Of a DNA stretch of 64,000 nt, positions 192 to 60,089 are shown piece by piece. The stretch spans positions 9,562,532-9,626,531 of the forward strand of contig OY979724.1 of the NCBI GenBank assembly GCA_963855995.1, written 5' to 3'. This DNA comes from Muricea muricata (taxonomy: Eukaryota > Cnidaria > Anthozoa > Malacalcyonacea > Plexauridae). Made by a program: the position numbers and the translations under genes. The notes beneath the pieces are model-generated. The model did no database searches and was not told the DNA's origin. It saw nothing but the letters and a program-made list of their open reading frames with translations. The stretch's first letter is position 1. The number at the start of each line of letters is the position of its first letter.

Positions 192-3100
192 ATGGAAAAG
201 ATGATTTGGTTTTGTATTGTCGAGCTTCTCGTGGTTTTTGTTTCATGGGCGAGTAGTTCCATCGATATCAACAGTAAGTTTATATTGCGTAAATTTTAAT
301 TAACTGTAAAAACGCCCGTTGCTTGTGCAGTTGTGTTAAAACTTTTAGATGTAGATTTTACTTTGTTATAATTTAGTAGTTACTGTTCAGCCAGTCTTAT
401 TTCAAACTTCCAATAAATTGCAAGCGAATTTTATGTTCCTCGTTTTCAATGAAAAGGCGATACATGAAGTGTTACATAATTTAAGTTCTAGTTCACACGC
501 GCTGCAGTTATAAAGTATGACTGACTTGATTTTTGTAAATACTCGAATTGAAATTAACTACAGTAAGAAATGTAGTCGTGCACACTCCAGCAAGAGCCGG
601 GCGTAATTTGATCGTACTGTGCATAGCTGCACGGACGACAATGTTTTGTCAGTATGTGGTAAACATTTTGCCGAATTCTAAACATTATACCACATTTCTA
701 CCAATAAAAATACAGTTACAATCTACAGAAAAAAATAAGCTACGTATGTATATCAGATGGAGAAATAACAGTGAAATAATTCAATACTATCAGACAATTA
801 AGAGTTCATCTTTGGCTTGGCTAAATTTTGGTTTCCATATTGATTTCTTGAAAAGTACTTTTCATGAAATTAATAATAAGAAGTCCTCACGTCAGATACC
901 ATAAATGTATTGTCAAAAACATGGCCATATTGATAAGTGTTTCGTAAGGCTAGCCTTCTTGGAATGCAACTCTTGTTTCTGAAATTCCAAACATAAGGGG
1001 ACATTGATATTATTGTCATGCAAAATTAATGTAACTTTTAGGCGAGGCAAACTTTCATTCACTATACTGTATGTAAACATAGTATCCGTCTCATTGTAGC
1101 TTGTTGTGTGAGGCTTTACAAATTCTTTGTGATGTACTATCAGTTTCAAAAGTTCTTAGTATATCTACGACTTATAGATAATTGGCTGTTTTGTAACAGA
1201 AATGGGGGGGGGGGGGGGGGGGGCACAGGAGTTCAATTTTTTGATAATTTTAAGCTTCAGGACTGCATGTCTACCCCAATATAGTTTTGGAAATAATTGT
1301 AGTTATTTACTCCAGGCTAGATAGCTATTAGATAGAAGTTAATTTTTTGTAGAGTTCAGTACGTGCTAAATGGCATAAGCAATGGGAACCACTTCAAAGT
1401 ACATTTCCTACTTGAGACAAAATCAAAAGATGTGTGATGACAGCTGGTGTTATTATAGAATTAGGCATTTCCCAATTTAGAACTCTAAAGCACAGGGCCT
1501 TTTTTAACTATTTATGTGGGGGGGGGGCAAGGACCTCCCACCCCCTCCTTTGGCCCCCCCACTGATGGATTTTAGCCCCCCACTAAGTTGTCATGTTGTT
1601 ACTTTAGCACATAGCATGAAATAAAAATGTATGTACTGCTCTTGGCAGTGGGTGGGGACAGTTAAATTTCTCACCATTTAAATTAATAATAACCGAATAA
1701 TACAGTTTATTCAGGTCAGTGGTCTACTTTATATCTGTGTAAAACGACATACATCTACATCAATCAGTTCATAACGCAGGCGCATTGCAATTGACCTAGT
1801 CGAAGAGCCTATGATTGAAGTTTAACTTCAACAAATAAGATAAAATGTTCAATCCATTCATACTGTCATTCTAAGACATTACACATCATATAAAATCTCT
1901 TAGCCTTAGCCTAAGTCCCAATTTACTATCATTGTATAAGTTGAAAGAGTTCATATTTTGTATAGATTGAGATTTAAGCATGTTTTGCTTACACAAAAAA
2001 ACAGTGCGTTGATGAGCAAAAATGTTAACTAATAATAACTGATCGTAACATTTTAAAAATATTTTTCATTCAATAATAAATATAGAAACTATGTCAGCAT
2101 ATCCCACAATTTTCTGGTCCCTTCGGTCATAACCAAAAGGTCCCTTATGTACACACACCCCCACGGGCAATTTCTTAAAAAAGGCCCTGCTAAAGCATCT
2201 CATTCTATGGGTTGTTTAAACTTTAAAGGGACTAAATGAAGTGATTTTTAGAAACTTTGAAAGTTGAAATTATGAGGGGTATAATTATCTCACGAAAAGC
2301 CACTAAGGTTGTTTCATAGGCAGCCCAATTCAGTGTGTAGTTTCATATAGAGATCAGTGCTTTGCTTCATACATTATTATAATAATGTATGAAGTGTGTG
2401 CGCACTGATCTCTATATGAAACTACACACTGAATTGGGTTGCCTATGGTTGTTCTTGCACAATTTGTGCTGTGTCTCATCATGGCTTAAGCAGTGGGACA
2501 ATGAATGCATTTCTTTACAAAAGCTTCTTAAATCTGATTTGACCACCTCTCTGGTTCCAAATGTTGCAGTTATTTAAAGCAGGGGGGGGTATCCAAGCCA
2601 TTCTAACAGGATCTGGTAAAAATATTACCACATCTGGTCTTGCTCATGACTTGTCCTCCCCTTCAAACAATCCATGCATGCTTTGCGGTCTTGATTAGGA
2701 ACAGGTTCATTTGTGCTCAACATGTAAGTTTATGCTATTTCTCTTTAAGACTGAGATTTTCCCACCACCACAGCAGAATAACTTACCATAAACTTCTCCT
2801 TGGCTATAAATTGGTTTGCCAACCAAGCCCATGCTTAGCCTGCAGGAGTCTGGGCTTACTCTGGATGTAAACACCAACAAAGCATGCCAATTTTAAAACT
2901 ACTTTTGGCACATGAGAAGTATTTTGCATCTTGAACAAGTCTATTTTTGATTGGTCAAATGACAACAAGGGAGAAGGGTGGAGGTTGTAAATTATTAAAA
3001 GATTTTTTTTGTTTCTAAGCAAGGTGCTTGAGGCCTTCAGGATACTAAATCCAGGAAACCTAACCCCCCCCCCCCCCTCCCCTAGGTGCTCAGCCATAGC

Positions 3101-6100
3101 ACATCCACGTTAAATCATACTCTGCTGTCCCTTATGTGGAAAATGGCCTGCCCAGAAGCATGAGAACAAAATAGCGAATGTGAACATCTTCAAATAGATG
3201 CCTCCCTCGAATAAACGCTGCCAAAAAAAGCGTAGAGCGCTAGTGCACTTTTTTGCGTCGATGTGCTTTTATTCAGAGCAATAATAATTTCTGAGCAGGT
3301 AAACTTCATGGTTACGTTTTAAAATTAAAAAAAAAATAAATCCAATCACAGTTGATGTTACAAAAATCACAAAGTCAATATAAGTAAACGCGGTCTCCCA
3401 ATGGAAAAAGCTACTAAATGCTGCCTTGTTTGTTCAAGGTAATTATAAAACAGTGTTTAAAAATTGATCTAAAAATTCGAATCACTTCTCAAAACACTCA
3501 ATACATTCTCAACCTTCGCGCTGTCCATTTGAATCCACTTTCGAGATTCAATTCGATATGGTTGGTTTCTCCTCTTTTGCCTTGGCAACTGTTTCTTTGG
3601 TGTTTTTAAACGTTGTCACAAAAACATCGTCTTCAACAAATGGTATGCTTCATTTTTAGTATTTTTACCGCTTTTTTCTCGCCAATTGTAGAGCACCGTG
3701 TTGGTATGTTTTCTGTGGAAAGGTTTTGTACATTGACTTATAAATGCCGTTCATTTTAACATTTCTGGAATTTTTTCAAACGGCACATCGAATTTCAGGT
3801 TTTCTAAGATATAGTATTATAAACAGGGGAATGGACTGGATAATGCGAGCTAAAGCGCTGTAATGTTGATGACGCGACATCCATGAAGCGGCCAGTTACG
3901 CTTTGCTTTGGAACCCTGTAACTTCTCTTTACAAATGTTCCAGTACTTTGTATTTACGTATTTTAAACAAGAACAGCAATGCCTTAGTATGGAACTATCG
4001 CTTTTAAAAGCAAAATCAGCCTACGCTGAATTTGTGCCTTTTAGTTGAGTGCCGAGAAGTTTCGCCACCGATGTTGTTAAAAACGTTTTACGAAAGCATT
4101 TAATTGTGATTTTCGGCCTGTTTTTTAGATGTTGTGAACATCGAATATTAATTGTGGACCGAAATATGTTTTATGATTTACTTTATTAAATATTCGTTCA
4201 CAAGATTTAAAAGATACCGATTAAAAAGTGCGGAAAAGTTACACAAACAGTGCAATTTTTGTAGCTGTAGATAAGAGCGGTAATTAGTTTTACTGATCTC
4301 TTTTTTATTAAATTTTAATTACATTTGAATGAGAAAGTACATATTATTATGATGGCTGTTCACATAGTTCTCAGATACAATCTTCGTGTAATTATGTTGC
4401 AATTGCGTCCTTTAATGTCTTTTCAATAAAAGAGCTGATATTATCATGATGGCTGTTTAAATAGTTCTTAAATACAATCTTTGTATAATTACATTGCAAT
4501 TGTCTTCTTTACTTCGTTTTAATAAGAAATTAATATTACAGAGATGGCTGTTTAAACAGATCTTAAATACAGTTTTCGTATTATTACATCAGTGGAGAAA
4601 TGTTACCAAACCTTGAACCCAGGGCATTTTTTGTAAATGTTACACCGCTCAGGGACTGGTCATAGTTCAGGGGGAGGTGGGGAGCTGGAAAGAGTGGGGA
4701 CTCGGCCCCTGGGTCGCATATTTTAACTAGTGAAAAGGGGTGTCTATAAAATATTAGACAGTTTATAGAGGGGTACCCTCCTGTTTCTGCATAGCAAATT
4801 CTTTTATGCATGCCTTCTGAGATTTTGTTTGAAAAATTGCACAAAAATCTATGCTTAGAATGTTAGACAAAATTGATTGCAAAATATAAATTAAAACGTA
4901 TATAAAGTCATATTTATCATCTCCCCACCTCTCCTACTAAATTATGACCACTCCCTTACAGGGTAGAGTTTCCGGGCCCGGCTGTGAAGTTGATTTTGTA
5001 AGGCGATCAATTAAAAAGTTAGTATAAGCAGGGCCGCCGAAAAGGGGGGCAACTTGCCCCGGGCCCCCAACCTCTTAGGAGCCCCAGTTTCAGAATTAGC
5101 CTAATATTGAGAAAGATCTCATCAAAATCGGGGCGAGTGTAAAGGGCCCCGTTTAGAGAACTGTCCACCTGCTATTAGTCTTCGTTTGAAAATAATGACG
5201 TCGCAGAGATACGTTGTACTCAGGCTTTCATACGATTTGGTAGAGGAAGAAACTACAAACTATGACTTTATCAATATTTCCCCGACGCAATATAGTACAT
5301 TAAGGCAAGAGTTTGTCCGAGTCATGTCCGCAACGGTGGTTTGTGGTGAGTGGCGTTTTCGTTAATCGCTAAAACTATTTGCTTACTCATGCATGTAAGC
5401 TATGAGGAATAATGATCTAATTATACTAATATAATAAACCTATAACAAACGTATACTATGATATATTCTCTGAATATATGATATTACATGATTAACAGTC
5501 ATGTAACACTTGTCATTTCTTACTTACAGAGTGCAGGGGACCACTTGGTTTGGCGAATGGTGATATTAAAGACAGTCAGCTATCAGCGTCTTCCCACAAG
5601 CCGTACATGTGGATTTCCCGCTTGCGCCGCACTTACCATCTGAAAGCGAAAGAAGGTCGATTAAACAACAAGCTGGCATGGTGCGGACTCAACCCGTACA
5701 GAAATCGTCGTTCCGTCTCGTATTTCCAGGTTGTTTTGACGTTTGTTATTAAAGGTCACCCTGTCTCCTCTTGAGCGATGTTGTTTTACTCGCTTTTTAC
5801 GCCTTTTTAGTTGGCTGAGTATAATATTTTAGTGAGTACTAGGCGGAACTGCGCGAGGCGGGCGAACGCAAGTTAAATCCGAGAATCAAAAATACCCGCC
5901 TGCTACGTACTAAAATAACTCACTAACCAAAAAAGCCACTGCGGAAAAGTGATGTTATTTTGCAACGACAAAAATCTGGAGACCAAAGTTGAAGTTATTT
6001 TTTACAGTAAAGGGACATTGCATGGCAATATATTTTCTTTTCGTAATATATTATCTTCTTTTTTTCATAATACAGGGTGTCCCAAAAAAGAAGTCCCTTT

Positions 6101-9100
6101 AGAAATCACTCTATTGTTATTAAATGTTGATTATTATGCCTCTGGGGATTTAAACGAATTGTCTACATGAATGGCAGAAGTATTTTCGTTGTTATAATTT
6201 GACGTAATTATTGTGTTAAGGAAGACTGTTTTTGTCTGGGACACACTGTATATGAACCTTTAAACTATTTGCAGCTTTTGTTCATATGTCCTCATTACAA
6301 TGCTCATCTTAATTCGGTCTTCTTCCCCCACCCCCTGGCTACGCGGCAATTATCTGATGGGATCGTATGATTTCGCCACTCTTTGGCTAACCGCTCTTTC
6401 CTATTTAGGTTGATTTCGGAGAAGTCGTTTACATAACTGGTCTGGCCACGCAGGGATTTCGCAATTTGAATGATTTCTACGTCAGCTCTTATAAACTTGC
6501 CTTCAGTTCGGATGGCGTAGATTACAACTCGACTAATAAGGTATGAACAAATTCATCTTCAGGTTTGCGAAGACTCACACAGGCCAGTTACTGTATGTGG
6601 GCTCTTCTACTCATCAGGTTGGAAATATTTTGTGTTAAGCTATGCAGGAAGTGCATCGCTAAAACCTATCGTGTAGACTAAGTAATCACATGTTTATGTC
6701 AGGTTTGGCAAGGAAACTCGAACGCGAACTCCATAAAGAGGAATAATTTTGATAGGATAATCCAGGCAAGATATCTTCGTATTTATCCTCAAGAGTACAG
6801 GACTTATCGATGTCTTCGGGTGGAAGTATTTGGCTGTCGTTTTAGTGATGGTAAGTTAGCTTATCTAATTGTAAAAAGGATTGTTATTTTTGCAATTGCC
6901 AGGAACTTCGCCAGTAGCCATTTGCGACAAGTCTGCTGACATCTTCTGCGACAGACTTGTTGTCAACAAGCCGATATCAAGACGTTCCTATCGCTTGCGA
7001 CAAGTTTATTGTTGACGAGAGGTCTGTCAACAAATCTGTGGCAAGTCGATTGAATGTCATAGCGTGTTGCACACATGCTTGCTGCAAGTCGTATCCTAGT
7101 CTGGGAAGAACGGGTGGCGCAAGCGGTTGGCGCGTTGTGTCTCTCATCGTTGTGAAACCAAGTGTGGTGTACATTTAGTATTCCATGTGAGTCGAGTTCC
7201 CGTCGTTGATCTCTCCTGTGCTTCGAAGGTTTTTGTCCGGGTATTCCGCTCCCCCCCCCCTGCACCCCGCAAAAAATCACCACATTGTAGGTAACATTTG
7301 TGAGAAAATGTGATGAGTGTAATTGGTAAATGTTTGAGAAAATTGTTAATTAGGGTTCGCCTCGCGATTTTCCTCTCAAGAAATGTGTGACTGTTTACCT
7401 TGAATAAATACTTTGAATATAAATCTAATAATCATGTTTTGGCTCGTTAAAGAATCTGATTTCGTTCTCCTTTAAAAAAAAGCTAGGGATTCTCTTTCAA
7501 TTTCATTTTAGCCAAGATCAAACTTTATTAGCTTTCAAGCAATTACTGACAATGAAGAATTCTGTTTACAGCTACAGCGCAGACAAGTTCAGCGTCCACG
7601 ACGACAAAAGTTAATCCAACGACAACAGTACGTGCCTTAACAACAGTGCTTTCCACAGCAACTGTACATGGCTTGCCAGAAGTGGTCGCGACGCCAAGCT
7701 TGCCTTCTTCACCAACTATACCATCCTCATCAACCACGTCCCTTTCTACGTTAACTGTGTCAACGACCACGACAAGTCCTACAAGTTCGCCAGCAACTCT
7801 TCCAGATATTCAAGGTATAGTAAGGTCTTTAAATCGAGGATAAAGACTGTGTCACATGAGGCACTTTTCTTGCAAATCGCGATGCAATTGTGCATAGTAT
7901 AATATAATCCACAGACTTGATGCAAGTTATGCATTTTACCAGCTCGATGCAAACTTGTCATCAAGTTGCGTCCAGCCTGTCAAAATCAAACTTGATGCAA
8001 CTCGATGTTTGCAGAATTGCTGCTCGTTGTTGGAACAACTTGTATCAGGCTTGTAAATGAAAAGTCATCAAGATTCTACTTGCTTCAAGCCTCTGTTGAC
8101 AACTTGCAGTAGACTTGTTATCATCAAACCGAAGAAAGGGATGTGAACGCATCCTGATACCGGTTTGATGACAGCAAGGCAATTACTAAGTCTGCAGCAG
8201 AATAAGAAAATTTTGAAGGCTAATTTTAGTTAAAGTGTTTGACACTAAATTTTTTATCCCCTTGTTATAATTTGTATAACAACCTCTTTTGCAGTTTTTC
8301 ACTTCTTGTGCTATAACTTAAGATGTTGTCTGAAGTTTTATTGCAAACAACGTGACGTATCACAATGCATAATGAGCTCTTGTTTAACCTTATTATATCG
8401 GTTCAGTCCGATACAGCTCACTTTCGGTTATTTGAACTACCTAATAGCTGTTATATTATGAATTTTTGGAAAAACCTTTATGCACTATGATCTCCCTACA
8501 AAAAACCCCTTCATCGCAATATTTTGGTGGTAATATGAAGCTTCGTCGCTAATTATTTAATGTGCGTCATCAGGTCCTTTATTGAGGGTGGTATGGGGAG
8601 GGGGTGGGTGGATCACGTTTTGCTGCAGGAAAAAGGGAGTTTTAAAATTTACTCCGAGGACATGGAAGACTATATGTTTGAAGTGTAACACTAGTCGTAA
8701 CTTACGTTTCAAACTAACTTGTTGTTTTTAATAGTCTCCTGTCCATGTACTGTGTGTGTGTGTGTTATTATAATTGTGTGTATTATTGTGTAAAGAGCCC
8801 ACAGTAATTGGTTTACACTGCTGTGTAAGTTAGTATAAGCAAGGCCGCCGAAAAGGGGGGCAACTTGCCCCCGGCCCCCAACCTCGTACGAGCCCCAGTT
8901 TCAGAATTAGTCTAATATTGAGAAAGATCTCATCAAAATCGGGGCGAGTGTAAGGCATAAAGGGCCCCGTTTAGAGAACTGTCCACCTGCTATTAGTCTT
9001 CGTTTGAAAATAATAACGTCGCAGAGATACGTTGTACTCAGGCTTTCATACGATTTGGTAGAGGAAGAAACTACAAACTATGACTTTATCAATATTTCCA

Positions 9101-12100
9101 CGACGCAATATAGAGTACATTAAGGCAAGAGTTTGTCCGAGTCATGTCCGCAACGGTGGTTTGTGGTGAGTGGCGTTTTCGTTAATCGCTAAAACTATTT
9201 GGAATGCTTACTCATGCATGTAAGCTATGAGGAATAATGATTTAATTATACTAATATAATGAATCTATAATAAACGTATACTATGATATATTCTCTGAAT
9301 ATATGATATTACATGATTAACAGTCATGTAACACTTGTCATTTCTTACTTACAGAGTGCAGGGGACCACTTGGTTTGGCGAATGGTGATATTAAAGACAG
9401 TCAGCTATCAGCGACTTCCTACAAGCCGTACATGTGGATTTCCCGCTTGCGCCGCACTTACAATCTGAAAGCGAAAGAAGGTCGATTAAACAACAAGCTG
9501 GCATGGTGCGGAGTCAACCCGTACAGAAATCGTCGTTCCGTCTCGTATTTCCAGGTTGTTTTGACGTTTGTTATTAAAGGTCACCCTGTCGCCTCACGAG
9601 CGATGTTGTTTTACTCGCTTTTTACGCCTTTTTGGTTGGCTGAGTATAATATTTTAGTGAGTACCTGGCGGAACTGCGCGAGGCGGGCGAACACAAGTTA
9701 AATCCGAGAATGAAAAATACCCGCCTGCTACGTACTAAAATAACTCACTAACCAAAAAAGCCACTGCGGAAAAGTGATGTTATTTTGCAACGACAAAAAT
9801 CTGGAGACCAAAGTTGAAGTTATTTTTTACAGTAAAGGGACATTGCATGGCAATATATTTTCTTTTCGTAATATATTATCTTCTTTTTTTCAATATACAG
9901 GGTGTCCCGAAAAAGAAGTCTCTTTAGAAATCACTCTTTTGTTATTAAATGTTGATTACTATGCCTCTGGGGATTTAAACGAATTGTCTACATGAATGGC
10001 AGAAGTATTTTCGTTGTTATAATTTGACGTAATTATTGTGTTAAGGAAGACTTTTGTCTGGGACACACTGTATATGAACCTTTAAACTATTTGCAGCTTT
10101 TGTTCATATGTCCTCATTACAATGCTCATCTTAATTCGGTCTTCTTCCCCCTCCCCCCGGCTACGCGGCAATTATCTGATGGGATCGTATGATTTCGCCA
10201 CTCTTTGGCTAACCGCTCTTTCCTATTTAGGTTGATTTCGGAGAAGTCGTTTACATAACTGGTGTGGCCACGCAGGGATTTCGCAATTTGAATGATTTCT
10301 ACGTCAGCTCTTATAAACTTGCCTTCAGTTCGGATGGCGTAGATTACAACTCGACTAATAAGGTATGAACAAATTCATCGTCAGGTTTGCGAAGACTCAC
10401 AGAGGCCAGTTACTGCATGTGGGCTCTTTTACTCATCAGGCTGGAAATATTTTGTGTTAAGCTATACAGGAAGTGCATCGCTAAAACCTATCGTGTAGAC
10501 TAAGTAATCACATGTTTATGTCAGGTTTGGCAAGGAAACTCGAACGCGAACTCCATAAAGAGGAATAATTTTGATAGGATAATCCAGGCAAGATATCTTC
10601 GTATTTATCCTCAAGTGTACAGGACTTATCGATGTCTTCGGGTGGAAGTTTTTGGCTGTCGTTTGAGTGATGGTAAGTTAGCTTATCTAAGTGTGAAAAG
10701 GATTGTTATTTTTGCAATTGCTAGGAACTTCGCCAGTAGCCATTTGCGAAAAAGTCTGCTGACATCTTCTGCGACAGACTTGTCAACAAGCCGATATCAA
10801 GACGTTCCTATAGCTTGCGACAAGTTTGTTGTTGACGAGAGGTCTGTCAACAAATCTGTCGCAAGTCGATTGAATGTCATAACGTGTTGCACACAGGCTT
10901 GCTGCAAGTCGTATCCTAGTCTTGGAAGAACGGGTGGCGCAAGCGGTTGGCGCGTTGTGTCTCTCATCGTTGTGAAACCAAGTGTGGTGTACACTTAGTA
11001 TTCCATGTGAGTCGAGTTCCCGTCGTTGATCTCTCCTGTGCTTCGAAGGTTTTTCACCGGGTATTCCGCCCCCCGCAAAAAAAATCACCACATTGTAGGT
11101 AACATTTGTGAGAAAATGTAATGAGTGTAATTGGTAAATGTTTGAGGAAATTGTTAATAAGGGTTCGCCTCGCGATTTTACTCTCAAGAAATGTGTGGCT
11201 GTTTACCTTGAATAAATACTTTGAATATAAATCTAATAATCATGTTTTGGCTCGTTAAAGAATCTGATTTCGTTCTCCTTTAAAAACAAGCAAGGAATTG
11301 TCTTCCAATTTGATTTCAGCCAAGATCAAGCTTTATTAGCTTTCAAGCAATTACTGACAATGAAGAATTCTGTTTACAGCTACAGCGCAGACAAGTTCAG
11401 CGTCCACGACGACAAAAGTTAATCCAACGACAACAGTACGTGCCTTAACAACAGTGCTTTCCACAGCAACTGTACATGGCTTGCCAGAAGTGGTCGCGAC
11501 GCCAAGCTTGCCTTCTTCACCAACTATACCATCCTCATCAACTACGTCCCTTTCTACGTTAACTGTGTCAACGACCACGACAAGTCCTACAAGTTCACCA
11601 ACAACTCTTCCAGATATTCAAGGTATAGTAAGGTCTTTAAATCGAGGATAAAGACTGTGTCACATGAGGCACTTTTCTTGCAAATCGCGATGCAATTGTG
11701 CATAGTATAATATACTCCGCAGACTTGATGCAAGTTATGCATTTTACCAGCTTGATGCAAGCTTGTCATCAAGTTACGTCCAGCCTGTCAAAATCAAACT
11801 TGGTGCAACTCGATGTTTGCAGAATTGCTGCCCGTTGTTGGAACAACTTGTATCAGGCTTGTAAATGAAAAGTCATCAAGATTCTACTTGCTTCAAGCCT
11901 CTGTTGACAACTTGCAGTAGACTTGTTATCATCAAACCGAAGAAAGGGATGTGAACGCATCCTGGTACTGGTTTGATGACAGCAAGGCAATTACTAAGTC
12001 TGCAGCAGAATTAGAAAATTTTGAAGGCTAATTTTAGTTAAAGTGTTTGATACTAAATTTTTTATCCCCTTGTTATAATTTGTATAACAACCTCTTTTGC

Positions 12101-15100
12101 AGTTTTTCACTTCTTGTGCTATAACTTAAGATCTTGTCTGAAGTTTTATTGCAAACAACGTGACGTATCACAATGCATAATGAGCTCTTATTTAACCTTA
12201 TTATACCGGTTCAATCCGATACAGCTTACTTTCGGTTATTTGAACTACCTTTACCTTTATGCACTATGATCTCCCTACAAAAAACCCCTTCATCGCAATA
12301 TTTTGGTGGTAATATGAAGCTTCGTCGCTAATTATTTAATGTGCGTCATCAGGTCCTTTATTGAGGGTGGTATGGGGAGGGGGTGGGTGGATCACGAGAG
12401 GTATGTCTTGTCTCTTTCCTCGTTGTGAAACCAAGTGTGGTGTACATTTAGTATTCCATGTGAGTCGAGTTCCCGTCGTTGATCTCTCCCGTGCTTCGAA
12501 GGTTTTTCTCCGGGTATTCCGCTCCCCCCCCCCCCGCACCCCGCAAAAAAATCACCACATTGTAGGTAACATTTGTGAGAAAATGTGATGAGTGTAATTG
12601 GTAAATGTTTGAGAAAATTGTTAATTAGGGTTCGCCTCTCGATTTTTTTCTCAAGAAATGTGTGACTGTTTACCTTGAATAAATACTTTGAATATAAATC
12701 TAATAATCATGTTTTGGCTCGTTAAAGAATCTGATTTCGTTCTCCTTTAAAAAAAAGCTAGGGATTCTCTTTCAATTTGATTTTAGCCAAGATCAAACTT
12801 TATTAGCTTTCAAGCAATTACTGACCATGAAGAATTCTGTTTACAGCTACAGCGCAGACAAGTTCAGCGTCCACGACGAGAAAAGTTAATCCAACGACAA
12901 CAGTACGTGCCTCAAAAACAGTGCTTTCCACAGCAACTGTACATGGCTTGCCAGAAGTGGTCGCTACGCCAAGCTTGCCTTCTTCACCAACTATACCATC
13001 CTTATCAACCACATCCCTTTCTACATTGACTGTGTCAACGACCACGACAAGTCCTACAAGTTCACCAACAGCGCCTCAAAAGATTCAAGGTACAGGAAGG
13101 TCTTTAAATCGAGAATAACGACCGTGTGACATGAGGCACTTTTCTTGCAACTCGCGATGCAATTGTGCATAGTATAATATACTCCGCAGACTTGATGCAA
13201 GTTATGCATTTTACCAGCTTGATGCAAACTTGTCATCAAGTTACGTCCAGCCTGTCAAAATCAAACTTGATGCAACTCGATGTTTGCAGAATTGCTGCCC
13301 GTTGTTGGAGCAACTTGTATCAGGCTTGTAAATGAAAAGTCATCAAGATTCTACTTCTTCAAGCCTCTGTTGACAACTTGCAGTAGGCTTGTTATCATCA
13401 AACCGAAGCAACGGATGTGATCCATAGATATCTCACATGCACTAGAAACTATTATCATAGGTGTGGAAGGGTAATCATGATGCTAACTCAATATATAAAT
13501 AGAGTTACATTCAGTAGTACAATCAAGGCAAGGTGCTTGCGTATCTATCCTCAGAAGTACAAAACCTACAGATGTCTCCGTGTTGAAGTGTACGGCTGCC
13601 CCATTCAAAATGGTAGGTTAACGGACCCGTGATCTTCTGATACTACACCTCGAAATGTCTATGACACGAAGTGTTGTCCGGCATTTTCTTGATTGCATTG
13701 CCAAGATCGTTGAAAATCACAATATAGCTTCTTTTGGTAGAATTTTTGTTACTGTGTTTTTTGTCGAGATATTCAAATTTATTGGATGTGGAAATACAGC
13801 TAATAATTCAATTACCAGCTGATCTGACCGTGAGTAAAAGGCCTGGAACCAGCTACCGAATGAAAATCTATTGTGCTGTTTTTAATTGCTTATATCTTTT
13901 ATTTTCATCGATGAAACTTGCTGAAACTATGTAATCCACCAGAAATTTGGAACCGAAGTAAATTACACATGATGAGAGATTTGTTAGTTTGGCTCGAAAA
14001 ATGGATTTCCATTTGACAACAGTGTTTTTAGATCTCCTAGAAAGTTGGCATCGACAATAATCAAATGTACACTATGGGTGCCCAAAGAATGATGATAAAA
14101 TTACAGTTTTAAATGTAAGATCAACACGTCACTGGCCCTACGTGAAAACAGCTATAGTATTTGATATGATATTTTAGCATTTGCACGTATCATTCATTTA
14201 TTTGTGATGTCATCCGTAACTGAATCAGCTGTAATACAACGTGTGATATCATATTGTGAAAAACTTCATTTCACATGGGGAGGCGTAGCGATGCACGTGT
14301 ATTGGGTAGCCTAGCGACCAATCGTAGCTTACGCACATGCAATCAAGATAATAGTGGACAAAATTTTGTATCATAGCCACCTATCCTGGCTAATTGCAAG
14401 CGTTTGTGTCCGAACTGACGCTGAATTTAAAAAAAAACGCGCAAAAATTGATCAGTTTGATGCAACGTTGTTCGCTGAACAACGCCTGAACAATATTGTT
14501 GTGATGATTCAACAACACTTGTTGAATTGACGAGTTGGTGAGTATTGTTCGATCAATGGTTGCTCACTGTTGACAAAGAACAATAGTTGTTACACCGTTA
14601 TTGAAACAAGCTTGTTGATGTTTAACAACCTAGCTGATCTGATCGTGAGTAAAAGGCCTGGAACTAGCAACCAAATAGAAATCCATTTTGCTGTTGTTAA
14701 TCACTTATATCTTTTGTTTTCCTTTATTAAACTTCTTGGAACTTAGTAGCTGTCTTTAATAAAGAAAATTATAAGTCTGCCAGAAATTTGGAAACAAAGT
14801 AAAGTATATTTCATGAGAAATTTGATGATTTGGATCGAAAAATGGATTTCTATTTGACAACTAGTGCCAGTACTCTTCCGTGTCTCCAGATCAACTGGAC
14901 ATTGTTGTTCAGTGTTGCTAACAGTGTACAGTGTTCCAACAGCCGTGAACAATGGTGATCAATTTTTGCATGCCATTTCTGGTAATAATTTCATGCTCTC
15001 AGTACGCGATAGTAAATCTTAATCCAAGCTTTAAATCTAATCAAATCTTTAATTCTTTAACCCATCAAAGTTAAAACATGACAAATAAAACGTTGGTTAG

Positions 15101-15487
15101 GGTTAGGGTAAAAGCCAACACGGAATTATTACCCCATTTCTGATCGCCATTCTCGTTACTATAGCTCGCCATACGCCAACCTCGACGACGTCATCCGTAT
15201 ATCACTCCCAATCTGTGATTCATATCAATCCAAGTCCATCACACATACCATCTGTGCACAAGCATAGTGTTGTTTCCGACCGCGCGAAGGGAAACGCTGA
15301 TGCCAAAACGCCATCTCGAATTTTGATTCTTGGCGTATGTGTTGGTATTGGAGTTTTGGTCGTGATCACGGTCCTTGCTGTCGTGATCTTGAGGACCAAC
15401 ACTCGCAAAAGAGCAGGAGAAATAACTCACAGGTATCGTCCGTACTTTAAAGGATTACTGTCACATTATGATATCGCGGGCGTTTAA
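192..15487 (+). CDS. Discoidin (F5/8 type C) single-pass membrane protein with duplicated domain-plus-stalk modules
   Basis: Proposed exons: 192-273, 5530-5729, 6409-6540, 6703-6850, 7572-7814, 9355-9554, 10231-10362, 10525-10672, 11380-11622, 12847-13089, 15165-15487. All have AG/GT borders and matching phases, giving 697 codons plus stop. Exon 1 encodes a hydrophobic signal peptide (MEKMIWFCIVELLVVF). Exons 2-4 and 6-8 each encode one F5/8C domain, running from a CRGPLG start cysteine to a VEVFGC end cysteine, as is usual for the fold. Exons 5, 9 and 10 are Thr/Ser/Pro-rich, probably O-glycosylated stalks. The last exon has a juxtamembrane stretch, a helix (LILGVCVGIGVLVVITVL), a basic stop-transfer RTNTRKR and a tail of about 30 residues. 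Every module is bounded by phase-1 introns, so copies can be added without breaking frame. The family usually binds glycans or lipids at the cell surface; the ligand here is unknown. Joining exon 1 across a 5.2 kb intron is an inference from phase and topology. A possible poly(A) signal lies at 16530-16535. Confidence 0.78.
1204..1223. repeat. Poly-G tract, 20 bases
   Basis: An uninterrupted run of 20 G. Similar runs recur at about 37426-37437, 51521-51531 and 52359-52371, mostly next to small inverted-repeat elements. Confidence 0.9.
2315..2447. mobile_element. Palindromic MITE-like element
   Basis: Two arms of about 55 bases match as an inverted repeat (CATAGGCAGCCCAATTC at the left, its complement ending GCCTATG at the right), around a short AT-rich centre. 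The flanks GTTGTTT and GTTGTTC could be a target-site duplication. There is no coding capacity. Confidence 0.7.
4340..4590. repeat. Tandem repeat, about 96-base unit, 2.5 copies
   Basis: GATGGCTGTT recurs at 4351, 4448 and 4543. Each is followed by a similar stretch reading AGTTCTTAAATACAATCTT and a TTGCAATTG motif. The units are diverged by several substitutions. Confidence 0.7.
5017..8617 (+). repeat. Tandem duplication unit A (discoidin domain plus stalk exons)
   Basis: This block matches 8829-12395 through exons and introns alike, differing by scattered substitutions and small indels. It carries exons 5530-5729, 6409-6540, 6703-6850 and 7572-7814. Inside are an imperfect hairpin element (about 5780-5955, with ACTAAAATAACTCACTAACC matching an arm near 5815-5850) and clusters of a CTTGTTGACAA-like motif. 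The spacing from A to B is 3825 bases at the first exon and 3808 at the stalk exon. Confidence 0.88.
5195..5345 (+). other. Candidate alternative first exon
   Basis: An ATG at 5195 opens 50 codons (MTSQRYVVLRLSYDLVEEET at the start) ending in phase 1 at a good donor, GTGAGT at 5346. It could therefore splice in frame to the discoidin exon at 5530, giving a product with no signal peptide. It cannot be an internal exon, because the preceding in-frame codons include a stop. The homologous spot in unit B has ATA instead of ATG and a 2-base insertion that shifts the frame. I do not recognise the peptide. Confidence 0.3.
8829..12395 (+). repeat. Tandem duplication unit B (discoidin domain plus stalk exons)
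   Basis: Second copy of unit A, holding exons 9355-9554, 10231-10362, 10525-10672 and 11380-11622 with identical lengths and splice sites. It lacks about 30 bases present in A near 8443-8473. All four exons are open, so both modules look usable. It ends within a G-rich stretch that joins directly to unit C. Confidence 0.88.
12396..13423 (+). repeat. Truncated duplication unit C (stalk exon only)
   Basis: Matches the 3' part of unit A (about 7134-8131). The join at about 12395 links the G-rich end of unit B to the middle of a unit, so it arose by an uneven break. It carries one intact stalk exon, 12847-13089, of the same 243-base length and phase. That exon is more diverged from A and B than they are from each other. 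Similarity stops near 13423. Confidence 0.85.
13461..13612 (+). pseudogene. Decayed third discoidin exon (C-terminal part of an F5/8C domain)
   Basis: After an acceptor ATCATAG the sequence reads like the last discoidin exon (VWKGNHDANSIY, then in another frame TIKARCLRIYPQKYKTYRCL and VEVYGC) and ends at a donor GTAGGT. It is 152 bases against 148 in the live exons. The frame is lost near 13492-13503, so it cannot be used. It is much more diverged than units A and B, so it is an older domain copy. Confidence 0.75.
13817..14032 (+). repeat. Dispersed repeat family R1, copy 1
   Basis: Starts near AGCTGATCTGACCGTGAG and shares landmarks AAAAGGCCTGGAAC, AGAAATTTGGAA and GAAAAATGGATTT with copies at 14632-14877 (same strand) and 39997-40238 and 57897-58073 (opposite strand). 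It is non-coding and about 180-245 bases long. Confidence 0.75.
14632..14877 (+). repeat. Dispersed repeat family R1, copy 2
   Basis: Best-preserved direct copy of R1: starts AGCTGATCTGATCGTGAG, contains ATAAGTCTGCCAGAAATTTG and ends near TTTGACAACTAGTGCCAG. Confidence 0.8.
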
Positions 15488-22680: not shown

Positions 22681-22962
22681 GTCCATTCCCAGCTCCATTT
22701 TGCCCCTTCTGCAGGACCGTCTTTATATGTCGTGATTTGGCTACAAGCATGTAGCCCATTAAATATATTATTATCTTTGTTTTTTTTATAGTATAATACA
22801 AAATGTTTGCTACCTGTTGTTGTTTTCATTCAAGGTTGACTTCACTGTCTTTATTGGTCGACAATATTGACGTGCTTTTACGGGTATTGAAGCATGAATA
22901 TTAAAATGTTTAGCTTGCATTATCGAAGCGAGTAAATTTGGGAGTATTTTAGCTTCTGGGCG

Positions 22963-22969
22963 TATAAAT
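22963..22969 (+). promoter_or_regulatory. TATA box of first tropomyosin-like gene
   Basis: TATAAAT lies 44 bases before the ATG at 23013. It sits in a stretch (GTAAATTTGGGAGTATTTTA, then GCGTATAAATTGGCGGC) that is the same in front of the second copy. Confidence 0.6.
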
Positions 22970-23012
22970 TGGCGGCTTTTTTCTCGGTTAACACAGCCAT
23001 TTCTGAAGAACA

Positions 23013-25493
23013 ATGGACGCTATCAAAGCTAAACTGGCTGCGATGCGTGAACAACTTGCTGCTGCAGAAAAGCGCGAAGAAATGGCGAGAATTCAAACGA
23101 GAGCTGCCAAAGAACGAGTCGCACAGGCCGAGAACGCCGCGGCGGCTGAAAAACGTAAAATCATAATGACTGAGCAGGCTATAGAAAGAGCCGAAGACCA
23201 AACTGATTTGAAACTAGACAAACTGGAACGTGTACAAAACCATATTTATGAAAATGCGACATACCGGCGACAACTCGAACGCAAAGAGATGAAAGAGGAC
23301 AACACTTTAGAACATTTGGAATCGAGGCAGAAGTCGCGAAGAATCTTCGCTGATGAAGCCGAGCAAAGATATCGCGAGGCTTATAATAAAATGAGTATGT
23401 TAGAACTGCAGACTGCAAAGGTAGGTTGTGAATAATATACATCAAGAGTTACTTTTTCTACTCTTGAAGGAAACATGGCAGGCGAGGGAGGGCAGGAATT
23501 GGGCAGCGGTTGAATTACTTCTTACGTTTAACAAACCCATTTACTCAAATTATTGCATATTCTATATATTATTTAACAATTATTCGCCCAAGGCGAAGTG
23601 ATTATTGGTGAATATTCACCGAGACGATGTCGAGGTGAATATTTACCATAATGACTTCGCCTTCGGCGAATAATTGTTTTAGTATTAGTATAATTTCTTC
23701 AGTAAAATTTACGTATATAAAATGCACTGTCGTCTTTTATGAATACAGTTTACTTCTGAACATTTCTGAGTAAAGACTAAAGTTTACTTGTAATTTTAAA
23801 ATAGTGAAAAAAGTATTTAATAAGGTATTTGCAGACGATCAATATATTACCTTAAGATAGTTTAACATCAAAGTTTGTTTGTAATCTTTGAGTTTATATT
23901 AATGCAATTTTTCTCCATTTGCTAACTTTGGCAAAAGTATAATACATCAAAACGACTCATTGGCGGCCATTTTGAAAAAAATGCCAACTAGTAAATAATG
24001 CCTCATATTTACTGGTCAGGCAACCAATCAAAATGCTTGAAAACCATTATTTACTAAAGAAATTATAGTAAATTATATTATATTATATATTATAATTATA
24101 TTGCATATCACTTAAACTTTAAAGGGTATACAAGCAAAAACGTAAATGAGTATATTTACTAAGTATATTATTAAGAAATAAGTTGAGCAAGCGATTGATG
24201 CTGACGGCAGGCAATCACCGAAAGAGGACCATTTCTATGTAATGGGAGGAAGAGGAGGACTTCCTGTGTGAATTCTATGTAATACACAACTCAATTCATT
24301 TACATTTTTGCGTCTACGCCCTTTATACGGGCATTACCAGTTGGTGAGCATGTTAACAAACCAGGTTTGAGAAAATCACATGACGAGTAGTATTGCCTGT
24401 CAGAAACTACGAGATACAATGACATTACCGTATTAAACTGGAAAAGAAGTGAAATGGTAACGCGAAGTGGATTGAAACCAGCTAAAGTTACGAGTTGAAC
24501 TGCTTGACGTCAAGATTGGGCCATAAATGAAATTTGTGCTTTTAAGAAGTTTTATATATACATATAAAAGTTGTGTATATAAAGTTCTATTTATTTGTAT
24601 ATATAAAAGTTTTAAGGCTTTGAGTAAAAGAAAAATACTTGAAACTTGTTGGTTGAAATTCTCGGTTGAAATTTATTTTTGTTAACTTTTCAAGTTTTTC
24701 GTAACGAAGTTGTAATCAAATGCGCTGATCAGTATAATTTACAAACCGGATTGCGAATTCTAAAATAAACCAACTTCGCAACGAATTTCCAACTTCGCAA
24801 CAAAGTTCGGAATCTTACAATGAAAAGTAGACTAAACTGGACTGTCTCTATTAAGTTAGCGTTGCAATTAAAACGAGAAAAATGTTTTACAATTTTTTTA
24901 GCAATGTCAAAAGCCCAAAGGATACAAAAAACTTCCTTGTTCACAAGTGGCGGGAAATTTTCCGTGTCTACATTGAGTTATGTAAACACGGCTTTTAACC
25001 AATCAGCGTTCAGGATTCACAAATGCTATATTATAATGAAAAGTAGGCTAAACTGGGCTGCAACGGAGACGGGCTATATTGACTTAGCGTTGCAATTAAT
25101 GCATTCAAATAGTCCAATGAAAATTACCTTAATTTTTCCCTCTAAACTGTTTTCGTCATTTCGTTCAAGGCGGATGCCAAAATCCGGGCGGCAAAATCAA
25201 ACGAAAGATATTTTGAAAGCAAACTAAACGATGCAGGAAGAACAGCCAACAGTCTGGCGAGATCTGGCGAATTCAAGCAAGCGAAATGCGACGAGTATCA
25301 GCAGAAATGTCGACGTCTCAACGACAAAAAGGAACGAGTATTAATCACGGCCGAATGTTTGGAAAGAAAAGCCGCCCAAATGGAAGATCGCGTACGTTCG
25401 TTGCGTGCAGAAACCAAAGAAACGAAAAGATATGAACTTAAAGTGAAGCACGAATTACGTGACATGATGGATGAACTAAACACCTATCCATAA
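23013..25493 (+). CDS. Tropomyosin-like coiled-coil protein, copy 1
   Basis: Two exons, 23013-23420 and 25170-25493, join in phase 0 to give 243 residues. The start MDAIKAKLAAMREQ matches the MDAIKKKM start typical of tropomyosins. The whole protein is rich in Ala, Glu, Lys and Arg with heptad spacing and no Pro until the C-terminal NTYP. The segment AEQRYREAYNKMSMLE resembles the ADRKYEEVARKLVIIE region of tropomyosin. It is about 40 residues shorter than the 284-residue muscle form, so it could be a short cytoskeletal-type form; such proteins dimerise and lie along actin filaments. The start is supported by a TATA box 44 bases upstream. A paralogue lies 8 kb downstream on the same strand. 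Confidence 0.85.
23570..23690. mobile_element. Hairpin element in tropomyosin-like intron
   Basis: The inverted repeat ATTATTCGCCCAAGGCGAAG is matched by CTTCGCCTTCGGCGAATAAT at the right, with an inner pairing of GGTGAATATTCACC. It is absent from the paralogous intron. Confidence 0.7.
24870..25040. mobile_element. MITE-like family R3 copy in tropomyosin-like intron
   Basis: Reverse complement of part of 15744-15900: AGCAATGTCAAAAGCCCAAA through AACCAATCAGCGTTCAGG to ATGCTATATTATAATG. The equivalent intron of the second copy carries the same insertion, so it came before the gene duplication. Confidence 0.75.
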
Positions 25494-25586
25494 CAGTCCT
25501 CTATTTATATATGAGTCAAATTCTTTGAGTCGTTAAAAATGAATTTATCTAGTATCTTTTTGTACATTTTGATATTTTATGTATAC

Positions 25587-30750: not shown

Positions 30751-30935
30751 TTTTCATTCAAGGTTGATTTCATTCGTTGTTTTCATTCAAGGTTGACTTC
30801 ATTGTCTTTCTGAGTCGACAATATTGGCTCTGTTTTTCAAACCCGTGCTTTTACGGGTACTGAAGCATGAATATTAAAATCTTTATCTTTTATTATCGAA
30901 GCGAGTAAATTTGGGAGTATTTTAGCTTCTGGGCG

Positions 30936-30942
30936 TATAAAT
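30936..30942 (+). promoter_or_regulatory. TATA box of second tropomyosin-like gene
   Basis: TATAAAT lies 44 bases before the ATG at 30986, in the same context as in the first copy. Confidence 0.6.
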
Positions 30943-30985
30943 TGGCGGCTTTTTTCTCGGTTATCACCGCCATTTCTGAACAACA

Positions 30986-33584
30986 ATGGACGCCATTAAA
31001 GCTAAACTGACTGCGATGCGAGAACAACTTGCTGCTGCAGAAAAACGCGAAGAAATGGCGAGAATTCAAACGAGAGCTGCCAAAGAACGAGTCGCACAGG
31101 CCAAGGACGCCGCGGGAGCTCTAAAACGTAAAATCAGAATGGCTGAGCAGGCTTTACAAACAGTCGAATACCAAACTGATTTGAAACTAGACAAACTGGA
31201 ACGTGTACACAAGCATATTTACGAAAATGAGACGTTGCGGCGACAACTCGAACGCAAAGAGATGAAAGAGGACAACACTTTAGAACATTTGGAATCGAGG
31301 CAGAAGTCGCGAAGAATCCTTGCTGAAGAAGCCGAGCAAAGATGTCGCGAGGCTTATAATAAAATGAGTATGTTAGAGCTGCAAACTGCAAAGGTAGGTT
31401 GAATAGTATACACCAAGAGTTACTTTTTCTACTCTTGTAGGGAACATGGCAGGCGAGGGAGGGCAGGAATTGGGCAGCGATAGAATTACTTATGATGTAA
31501 CAAACCATTTACTCAAATTATTACGTATTTAGGAATAACAAATTCTGGCTTATGAGATGTACTAACAGGTTTACAGGATAGTGGCTTTTTGAAACTGGCA
31601 TAAATACCAATGATATTGTTGCTGAATTCACAAGAGATGATGTTTATTCCAAAAATTTATACTTCAAAGGGTGTACAAGCGAAAACGTAAATGAGTATAT
31701 TTACTGGGTATATTAAGAAATAAGTTGAGTAAGCGATTGGTGCAGTCGCTATCAAAGAGGTTGCTGGCGTTCATTGATGCTGACGGCAGGCAAACACGAA
31801 AAGAGGATCATTTCTATGTAATACGAGGAAGAGGATGAATTCCTGTGTGAATTCTTTGTAATAGACAACTCAATTCATTTACATTTTTGCGTCTACGCCC
31901 TTTAATACGGGCTTTACCAGTTAGTGAGCATGTTAAGAAAGTTTAAGAAAATCACTATCCGGTAGATAGCGCTATTCACCAACAGACCTCTGGTTGCTAG
32001 CATATGGCGGGTAGTATTGCCTGTCAGAAATTATGAGATGCAATAACATTACCTTATCTCATGACACACCAACAACTCATTGTTTCCAAACGCATGCTAA
32101 ATGTCATATTCAACGGTATAAAAAACCATCAAGTGGGCAGGGCTTTGAAGTGAGGGAAATTGCGGGATAAAATAGCTCATTATCACACTCTGATAAATAC
32201 TTATTAAGCGCGTTTCTGCATGACCGATTAAATGGTAATTGAATGGTTTATTTTGAATAACATAACAAGCTAGAACAAAAGCAAAGAATGTTTGTAGGCG
32301 CTTTTGCTATCTAAATCGTCATCCAACCGCTAAATTTCATATGTAAAAGTCTCTCATTCGTTGTGGGTGTGTCATGAGACAAGACAGTTAATGAATGGTT
32401 ACTCGTGCGATGTGAGATTCAACATCGCTCGTGACGCTTAATAGCCACGAGGGCTGCGCCCTGGGCTATTAAGTTTCACTCGTGATGTTAAATACTGTAG
32501 CCAGAGACGTGCCAGACGTGTTAAATCTCATACCGTACTCGTATCCATTCATTAACCACTACTTATTAAACTGTAAGAGAAGTGAAATGGTAACGCGAAG
32601 AGAATTGAAACCAGCTAGAGTTATGAGATGAACCACTTGACGCCAAGATTGGGCCGTATATAAAATTTGAGTTTTTAAAACATTGTATATATTTCGTATA
32701 TAAGTTTCAAGACTTTAATTAAGTAAAAGAAAAATACTTAAAATTTTGAGTGGAAATTTATTTTTGTTAAATTTCATGTTTTTATATGTTAAAAGTACAA
32801 CATCAAATTTGAGATACAGCCCAATCTTTAGCATTACGTTTTTCAACTCGTAACTCAGAGAAGTTTAGAAATCGTTGCGAAGTTGTAATAAAATGGGTAG
32901 ATCATGTATAGTTTACAAATCGGCTTGCGAACTCTAAAATGAACACGATTGGAAATTGGGAAAACGAGAAAAATGTTTTACAATTTTTTTAGCAATGTCA
33001 AAAGCCCAAAGGATACAAAAAACTTCCTTGTTCACAAGTGGCGGGAAATTTTCCGTGTCTACATTGAGTTATGTAAACACGGCTTTTAACCAATCAGCGT
33101 TCAGGATTCACAAATGCTATATTATAATGAAAAGTAGGCTAAACTGGGCTGCAACGGAGACGGGCTATATTGACTTAGCGTTGCAATTAATGCATTCAAA
33201 TAGTCCAATGAAAATTACCTTAATTTTTCCCTCTAAACTGTTTTCGTCATTTTGTTCAAGGCGGATGCCAAAATCCGGGCGGCAAAATCAAACGAAAGAT
33301 ATTTTGAAGGTAAACTAAACGATGCAGGAAGAACAGCCAACAGTCTGGCCAGATCTGGCGAGTTCAAGGAAGCGAAATGCGACGAGTATCAGGAGAAATG
33401 TCGACGTCTCAACGACAAAAAGAAACAAGTTTTAATCACGACCGAATGTTTGGAAAGAAAAGCTACCCAAATGGAAGATCGCGTACGTTCGTTGCGTGCA
33501 GAAACCAAAGAAACGAAAAGATTTCAACTTGAAGTGAAGCGCGAATTACGTGACATGATGGATGAACTAAACACCTATCCATAA
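30986..33584 (+). CDS. Tropomyosin-like coiled-coil protein, copy 2
   Basis: Exons 30986-31393 and 33261-33584, phase 0, 243 residues, same length and splice sites as the copy at 23013. It is intact. Differences from copy 1 cluster at residues about 47-62 (LKRKIRMAEQALQTVEYQ against EKRKIIMTEQAIERAEDQ) and near 78-86, with EEAEQRCREAY for DEAEQRYREAY. The conserved core and C-terminus MMDELNTYP are kept. Role as for copy 1: a coiled-coil dimer expected to bind actin filaments. The promoter is duplicated too, so both copies are probably expressed, but the 3' end has a new downstream sequence and I see no AATAAA at the matching position. Confidence 0.85.
32054..32383. mobile_element. MITE-like insertion in second tropomyosin-like intron
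   Basis: Terminal inverted repeats TTATCTCATGACACACC at the left and GGTGTGTCATGAGACAA at the right bound about 330 bases that are absent from the paralogous intron. Confidence 0.7.
32387..32556. mobile_element. Second MITE-like insertion, adjacent
   Basis: Perfect 12-base ends GTTAATGAATGG and CCATTCATTAAC continue as an imperfect inverted repeat (GATGTGAGATT against AATCTCATAC). An inner hairpin is centred on GGCTGCGCCC. Absent from the paralogous intron. Confidence 0.7.
32960..33128. mobile_element. MITE-like family R3 copy in second tropomyosin-like intron
   Basis: Same sequence as 24870-25040 with hardly any difference. It is carried along by the segmental duplication. Confidence 0.75.
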
Positions 33585-34161
33585 CAGTCCTCTATTTATA
33601 TATGAGTCAAATTCTTTGAGTCGGTAAAAATGAATTTATCTATCTTTTTTACATATCGATGAGAGCAATGGTTTTTAGTCAGGGCAGTAAAGCTAGAGTC
33701 GTCCAGTTATATTGATGAAAGACCTTAAAAATGGCGAATTTCGAAGGGCATATGGCTCGTCTCAATCTCTTGTGGCAAAGGAATTTCGCTCAGTCAAAAG
33801 ATTGATTTTTGTGCACATTTTCTATGTAGATTCTTTAATTTCTTCTACCATCAACATAAACGTTATACAACAATTTATAATAGACAATAGACAGCCTTAG
33901 ACAAGACAATGTATTTCCCTAGCATATCCAGAAACAACTTGTTTTTGTTTTCATCAGTCATGGTTTGATTTTGTGCACAGTCATTATGTAAATTCTTCTG
34001 AAGACACGCCAAATATATATAGTATCTACCTATCATTTTTTACTATTTCATATATGCAGAACATTGGTCATAATTACACGTACTTAGTAAGCAAAACTTG
34101 CCAATCTTCTGATAAGAAACTACCTACATGAAACCCAATGTGCGTCTAAACTATGGATTGT
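33585..34161. other. Intergenic, no gene seen
   Basis: Shared 3' UTR sequence runs to about 33655. Beyond that it is AT-rich and unique, with no element recognised. Confidence 0.5.
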
Positions 34162-58358: not shown

Positions 58359-60089
58359 TTACACATATTTTTTTGTGGAAGGAAAAACTTCAGCAACTGC
58401 TCTATGCCTGTCTTTATTCATAGCAGGAAGATATTCCCATGCAGAACCTCCCATCGTAAAACACTCCACAGAACAGAGTGATTCATTTTTCTCATTGACA
58501 CCTCCCATCACCACAATGGTATCTCCAGTAATAACTGCACAGCATGCATATCTCTTCTCCAGCATGGGTGGTAAAGCTGTGATCTTGCCTGTCTTGCAGT
58601 CATACATGAAAACATCATTCAAAGCTTTCTGTCTTTTATTACGTCCTCCAAGCACAACAACTTGATCTCTCCAGCAAACTGTTGCCATTCTTGACAAGGG
58701 ATGTGGTAAAGGTGGCATCTTCTTACACTCATTTTTGTTGACATCAAACTCCAACACAGTATTGAGACAACCTTGATCACCTTTTCCTCCCAAAATCATC
58801 ACTTTATCTTCAAAAATCTGAGCACCATGGCAACTCCATGGTTGAGGCATTCGACACAATTTTTTCATGGTGCAAGGTGAGGTGAGTTGCAGTTCACTAA
58901 TCATATCAGACCGTCTTCTTTGATTATATCCACCAATGTAAATGATATGCTGCTGGTAAACAACAGTTTGATGATCACGGCAACTATAAGGAAGTTCTCC
59001 AGGACATTCCGTCCATTTCAAAGGTAATTCATTCAGATCCAATGTCTCTAGTGTCTTACTATACCATCCCGCAACAACAAATAACTGATCATTATACATA
59101 AATGATGAACTATAACAATGTTCTTCATTCATTTCTGACACCTCAAACCAACCATTCTTCTCCCAGGAAAATATTTCTGTACTTTTGCCAACTTTCCCCC
59201 ATCCACCAGCAACTAAAATATCTTCTTTTGGTGTATCGAATATTCCTGCAGTTGAAGATGACACTTTGTTATGCTGCTCAAGCATGTTAAACTTCTCTAA
59301 CACTTGAATCATCATGACTTTGACTTCGTCCACATCTTTGTTCACTTTTGAAAGACTTTCCTTTACATCTTTGACTTCTTTCTTAATTTGTTGGACTTCT
59401 TGTTTAACTTGTTGTTCATCTTGCTTGATTTGATCAGAATTTTGGTCTTGACTAGTTTTTAATGCTTCTACTTTCGCATCTAGTTCCACTAAACGTCGTT
59501 CTAATTTTCCCACAGTCTGCTTCACTTCAACGCGAATGTTCGCTGTCCTTTTATTGGCTGCTTCCACTTTCTCATCATGTTGTAATAAACTTCTTTTCAA
59601 TGTTTCAACATCTTCCTGTATCTGTCCACAGTCATGACATTTCACTCTCCTATATTCACATACTTCAGTCTCATGACGGACCTTATCTTGCTTGTTAATC
59701 TCCATACCACACTCTGCGTTTGAACACAACACAGGCGCATAGCCACAAGTAACAACGTGAGTTTTGAGTCCTTCTAGACAAGTAAACTCAGGGCATCCTC
59801 GACTGGCATGATCACAATTTATCTTTAGTTTAGACAAATATTTATTCGCTAAACGTGCTCTGCGAAGCGTATCAACGCTCAAATGTTCGTTGCATTCGGG
59901 ACAAGTTTGAGAATTGACACGGAGATGCTCAGTGATACAATCTAGGCAAAAGAGATGTTCATTATTTCTGCACATTCTTGGTTCTTTAAGAACGTTGTAG
60001 CAGATAGAGCAGTGCAAATTTTCGTCGACATCTTTCTCAAACCGACAATCTTCGTAGCCATATTTCACAACTGAAGAACAAAAAGCCAT
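58359..60089 (-). CDS. RING finger / TRAF-type zinc finger / coiled-coil / kelch protein (NRDP1-like N-terminus)
   Basis: Intronless, 576 residues. A C3HC4 RING at residues 27-66 (C27, C30, C40, H45, C48, C51, C63, C66) follows GYEDCRFEKDVDENL, very like the start of RNF41/NRDP1. A cysteine- and histidine-rich zinc-finger block (about 90-155, CDHASRGCPEF, CGYAPVLCSNAECGMEI) follows, as in NRDP1 and SIAH-type proteins. Then a long coiled coil (about 160-275, repeated QQVKQEVQQIKKEVKDVKE) and kelch repeats (about 290-570, with GG pairs such as LVAGGW, IYIGGYN, VMILGGKG, VVVLGGR and VVMGGV). It is expected to be an E3 ubiquitin ligase in which the kelch propeller binds the substrate. All zinc ligands of the RING are present. 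A paralogue lies 3 kb away on the same strand. Confidence 0.92.
   Translation of the reverse strand: MAFCSSVVKYGYEDCRFEKDVDENLHCSICYNVLKEPRMCRNNEHLFCLDCITEHLRVNSQTCPECNEHLSVDTLRRARLANKYLSKLKINCDHASRGCPEFTCLEGLKTHVVTCGYAPVLCSNAECGMEINKQDKVRHETEVCEYRRVKCHDCGQIQEDVETLKRSLLQHDEKVEAANKRTANIRVEVKQTVGKLERRLVELDAKVEALKTSQDQNSDQIKQDEQQVKQEVQQIKKEVKDVKESLSKVNKDVDEVKVMMIQVLEKFNMLEQHNKVSSSTAGIFDTPKEDILVAGGWGKVGKSTEIFSWEKNGWFEVSEMNEEHCYSSSFMYNDQLFVVAGWYSKTLETLDLNELPLKWTECPGELPYSCRDHQTVVYQQHIIYIGGYNQRRRSDMISELQLTSPCTMKKLCRMPQPWSCHGAQIFEDKVMILGGKGDQGCLNTVLEFDVNKNECKKMPPLPHPLSRMATVCWRDQVVVLGGRNKRQKALNDVFMYDCKTGKITALPPMLEKRYACCAVITGDTIVVMGGVNEKNESLCSVECFTMGGSAWEYLPAMNKDRHRAVAEVFPSTKKYV

Follow-up and report, generated by a model that had tools for sequence, protein, structure and literature searches.

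Two nearly identical discoidin domains that differ almost only at amino acid-changing positions raise the question of whether selection has driven them apart. They lie in a 64,000 nucleotide stretch of DNA (the window) from the anthozoan Muricea muricata (GenBank assembly GCA_963855995.1, contig OY979724.1, positions 9,562,532 to 9,626,531 of the forward strand), in which self-comparison identifies two tandem copies, unit A (5016-8617) and unit B (8827-12396), with 96.5% identity across 3.4 kb aligned. Each unit contains three F5/8 type C (F5/8C, or discoidin) domain exons and one Ser/Thr/Pro-rich stalk exon. Given so few changes, the ratio of seven replacement changes to one silent change between the two domains is that expected from mutation without detectable selection.

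Differences between the two cassettes

The domain exons of units A and B differ at 8 of 480 bases, seven of the differences being replacements (A to B: S21T, H23Y, H37N, L54V, L79V, E142V, F158L) and one silent (GTA/GTT at residue 153), and the stalk exons differ at 3 of 243 bases with a single replacement (A75T), exactly as counted in a preliminary description of this DNA. Outside the exons, 81 of 2832 aligned sites differ (divergence 0.029; 46 transitions, 35 transversions), and this non-coding spectrum predicts that 73% of non-stop domain changes would be replacements, close to the three quarters assumed earlier. Seven or more replacements among eight changes would then occur with P = 0.32, and even eight of eight would give p = 0.08, which bears out the earlier warning that so small a count does not separate modes of selection.

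Within the domain, nonsynonymous divergence per site (dN) is 0.019-0.020 and synonymous divergence (dS) 0.008-0.009, a difference that is not significant (Fisher p = 0.69 or 0.46, according to which of two kappa values is used), and the pair thus gives no significant sign of diversifying selection. Nor is the dN of 0.020 above the non-coding divergence of 0.029 (p = 0.49); 8 domain differences are observed, compared with 13.6 expected at the non-coding rate. Taken in total, the exons diverge less than the non-coding sequence (11 of 723 sites versus 81 of 2832, p = 0.048), and they contain no indels, versus 8 gap runs outside them. The dN/dS ratio (omega) is 0.93-1.08 for domain and stalk combined, and 0.65-0.80 when the stalk of a third, partial unit (unit C) is compared with those of A and B. 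An excess of replacement changes is not supported for this pair, and positive selection argued from A and B alone was rejected as unsupported. A similar mix appears in another duplicated gene in the window (22819-25567 and 30776-33654, tropomyosin-like by eye), two exons of which show replacement to silent counts of 21:10 and 11:5 and omega values of 0.73 and 0.78, offered as a rough comparison.

The preliminary description had also proposed mapping the seven residues onto the ligand-binding loops of the fold. In neuropilin-1 these are L1 (296-300), L2 (310-313), L3 (347-350), L4 (411-416) and L5 (317-322), as given in an excerpt of PMC10385628; for factor VIII C2, an excerpt of PMC4361576 places hairpins 2197-2202 and 2249-2254 and the loop 2213-2216 near the membrane-binding region. 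The A and B loops were provisionally located by sequence alignment to neuropilin. By this placement H23 lies in L1 and L54 in L5, while S21, H37 and E142 lie no more than two residues from a loop; L79V occupies a strand position at which hydrophobic residues are conserved, and F158L falls just after the last Cys. Strictly, then, 2 of the 7 changed residues are in neuropilin-homologous loops (P = 0.46).

Discoidin relatives elsewhere in the genome

The genome searched comprises 453 Mb in 74 contigs. A DNA search with exon 1, of a kind that skips very common words, matched A and B only; a protein search, with 150 of 288 candidates scored, found no close copy away from the locus, its best match being 53% identical over part of the domain; and no third close copy turned up when the 20 kb upstream of the window were searched with tblastn. 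The A/B pair cannot settle the selection question because no third close copy was found. A relict of domain exon 3 in the window is too diverged to polarise the A/B changes. An exact 34-base pattern had 0 matches in viral_contigs.

More distant relatives are numerous. Among the same scored candidates, at least 115 F5/8C exon matches at E <= 0.001 occur in the genome, this locus included, many of them in tandem clusters. Pairwise comparison of 112 distinct exon segments, from 74 loci (246 kb) and the window, yielded 193 pairs at least 80% identical over at least 35 codons. Pairwise omega is mostly below 1 in the clusters on C4 and at C1 110-111 Mb, save for pairs with very few changes, and ranges from 0.2 to 2.9 on C12, with many values above 1. 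Because pairs are not independent, codon models were used. They detected no positive selection in either of two exons of the C4 cluster (12.31, 12.55 and 12.89 Mb; L035-L037), whose 8 copies have omega values of 0.40 and 0.16 in those exons.

For the C12 cluster, the first-exon set contains 15 sequences of 104 codons, 13 from C12 12.01-12.47 Mb and 2 from C3 (21.86 and 16.1 Mb; together L012, L015, L028, L031 and L038-L048), with L047 trimmed before a stop. GY94 models were fitted with our own code, which reproduces the IQ-TREE likelihood of -2127.06; in the site models branch lengths were scaled, not re-estimated. Overall omega (M0) is 0.64, below 1 (likelihood ratio test, LRT, 11.9). The 35 codons in loops placed by neuropilin have omega 1.17, versus 0.41 elsewhere (LRT 64.8), and a mean protein entropy of 1.02 versus 0.46 outside (p = 4e-5), although the loops as a whole are not significantly above 1 (p = 0.25). 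M2a is favoured over M1a (LRT 57.7) and M8 over M8a (LRT 48.7, p = 3e-12), the latter driven by codon 41, at which the 15 copies carry nine residues (F, T, Q, S, D, A, R, G, H). With all codons included, the selected class is essentially codon 41 alone (1% of sites), the sole codon with posterior above 0.8. When it is removed, M8 is still favoured over M8a (LRT 15.2, p = 1e-4), placing 23% of sites in a class of omega 2.1, and codons 49, 25, 68, 87, 85, 30 and 55 have posteriors above 0.85. Seven of these eight top codons, 41 among them, fall in loops, codon 68 being outside. The last domain exon of the cluster (14 sequences, 46 codons) has an overall omega of 0.60; omega is 1.85 in its six L4 codons, which exceeds 1 (LRT 6.46, about p = 0.011), versus 0.46 in the other codons, and M8 is favoured over M8a at p = 0.023.

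Preference for M8 over M8a was significant in five of six robustness runs. A third-position tree gave LRT 61.1 with all sites and 38.3 minus codon 41; codons 46-104 on their own tree gave 12.5 (p = 4e-4); dropping one outlier gave 29.3 and dropping four sequences 9.6 (p = 0.002). The exception was codons 1-45 on their own tree minus codon 41 (LRT 1.5, p = 0.22). Omega for the a-priori loops ranged between 0.83 and 1.31 across these runs, never significantly above 1. These results support diversifying selection on the C12 discoidin loops as judged from codon models, a conclusion that must be tempered by a poorly supported tree and by gene conversion among tandem copies, which can inflate site models. 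In two C12 loci that were inspected, two domain exons were seen and no other domain or membrane helix was identified, gene models there not having been worked out.

Receptor gene model and competing explanations

The locus reads as one predicted single-pass transmembrane receptor gene on the forward strand, with a signal exon, two domain-plus-stalk cassettes, a domainless third stalk and a transmembrane exon. A putative first exon (3558-3642), with an ATG open frame, a hydrophobic start typical of a signal peptide and a GT donor at its phase-1 end, joins in frame to unit A, whose F5/8C exons occupy 5530-5729, 6409-6540 and 6703-6850 and whose stalk exon (Ser/Thr/Pro = 60%) occupies 7572-7814. 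The corresponding exons of unit B, with splice sites and frame equally intact, are at 9355-9554, 10231-10362 and 10525-10672 (4, 1 and 3 differences from A, respectively) and at 11380-11622 for the stalk (3 differences). Self-comparison and frame identify a third stalk exon (12847-13089) in the partial unit C (12408-13420), which has no intact domain exons, followed by a diverged relict of domain exon 3 (13461-13612) with a frame change inside, seen as two tblastn matches in different frames. A single exon with an AG acceptor, a GT donor and an in-frame join (15165-15432) would encode the membrane-proximal stalk, the transmembrane helix, where 19-residue hydropathy reaches 3.2, and the start of a cytoplasmic tail. 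AG acceptors and GT donors flank the internal exons, which join into an open frame of 680 codons running from the signal exon through the whole transmembrane exon. Because the cassette begins and ends in phase 1, adding or skipping it keeps the frame. The surface receptor proposed earlier is thus borne out at the level of a predicted gene model, which reads in frame from the signal peptide through the domains to the transmembrane helix.

After splicing, the domains of A and B match Pfam PF00754 at 77.1 and 75.3 bits (cut-off 28.2). Residues C2 and C156 align, by sequence alignment only, with the terminal Cys pair of factor V/VIII C domains, and the closest solved structures by sequence are factor V, factor VIII and neuropilin domains.

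Some further observations concern the same region. A second signal-peptide-like exon (192-273, forward strand, with an ATG open frame, a hydrophobic start and a GT donor) ends in phase 1 as the exon at 3558-3642 does, and both fit the first domain exon; the two may be alternative starts. A stretch of 144 bases is identical between A (8474-8617) and B (12253-12396), beside a 29-base gap, reflecting either local conversion or chance. Elsewhere in the window, a 577-codon frame on the reverse strand (58359-60092), RING and kelch-repeat-like by eye, has a 92% identical partial copy at 63194-64000, also on the reverse strand.

We favour, with a probability of about 0.65, a young tandem duplication within one receptor gene whose copies have diverged near-neutrally with mild constraint. 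A phase-1 cassette of three F5/8C exons and a mucin-like stalk exon would have been duplicated in tandem within a single-pass receptor gene, and its copies would be spliced in series or as alternatives, their domains binding ligand via the top loops while accumulating changes at near-neutral, mildly constrained rates. The corresponding loops bind growth factors in neuropilin and membranes in clotting factors. Directly observed are the sequence itself, the phases and open frames of the exons, the family of the domains and, from DNA and protein searches of the genome, just these two close copies. Several points weigh against this account: the omega point estimate for the domain is 2.2-2.7; 5 of the 7 replacements fall in putative binding loops or no more than two residues away (P = 0.048, with a margin chosen post hoc); transversions make up 7 of the 8 domain changes versus 35 of 81 outside the exons (p = 0.024, uncorrected); and the gene model and splicing order are inferred from DNA alone. 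The high domain ratio itself arises because there is a single silent change, rather than because there are many replacements.

That omega estimate and the proximity of changes to loops are also what positive selection for different ligands in A and B would produce, as in C12, where the site-model signal and the L4 omega lend it precedent, the few changes then hiding the effect. We regard this as unlikely, since dN does not exceed non-coding divergence, the strict loop count is low, the changed residues by eye adjoin rather than coincide with the fast C12 codons, the C12 members are distant relatives of A and B, and the C4 cluster has no such selection. Somewhat less probable again is relaxed constraint, in which redundancy lets one cassette, or both, drift towards loss: unit C and its broken exon 3 relict indicate that decay occurs at this locus and dN is near the non-coding rate, but the frames and splice sites of A and B are all intact, exon indels are absent and total exon divergence is below non-coding, each a weak argument with 11 changes. 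An assembly artefact, in which two haplotypes of one unit were placed in tandem, seems very improbable; two alleles of an outbred animal could differ by about 3%, but the third partial copy breaks at points of its own, the roughly 210 bases separating A from B have no counterpart in the flank of B, stalk C diverges from both A and B, and the contig is long (14.3 Mb).

Comparison with known systems and meaning

The loops discussed here are ligand or membrane binding loops in neuropilins and factors V/VIII, according to excerpts of PMC10385628 and PMC4361576. By profile and sequence these proteins belong to the same PF00754 family as A and B, from which they differ in that the Muricea locus has two cassettes with mucin-like stalks and one transmembrane helix, and its modelled exons show no kinase, CUB or A domains. 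The F-lectin repeats of oyster sperm bindin, described in part of PMC5712786 as tandem in one gene and under positive selection around the binding pocket, share the F5/8C fold and resemble the C12 cluster; they differ in being F-type lectin, not F5/8C by sequence, and in belonging to a secreted sperm protein, and A and B differ from them in having no demonstrated selection. Coral tachylectin-2, described in PMC2880987, is a putative cnidarian recognition protein with an excess of replacement change among 244 alleles; it provides an earlier example of selection acting on such a protein in corals, although from another protein family and based on those alleles rather than the two paralogues at A/B. 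Among the open-access matches listed, judged by titles and the starts of abstracts, none concerned loop selection in cnidarian F5/8C clusters, which leaves its absence from the literature unproven; PMC8260672, checked for three terms, mentions discoidin once, among its references.

The earlier suggestion of fast-changing discoidin binding loops is accordingly supported by site models for the distant C12 relatives and unproven for the A/B pair. Any role in immunity or in recognising self or microbes is putative. Tentatively, and against the odds as we judge them, the large F5/8C set might constitute a germline-encoded recognition repertoire in which tandem duplication and positive selection generate diversity in the ligand-binding loops, with C12 as the mature form and A/B as a recent two-cassette member at the outset of that process. 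The pair itself serves as a caution, in that seven replacements among eight changes look striking and yet are near the neutral expectation. The C12 cluster, with binding loops apparently under diversifying selection in contrast to C4, is a concrete candidate, open to testing, for a recognition system that evolves rapidly.

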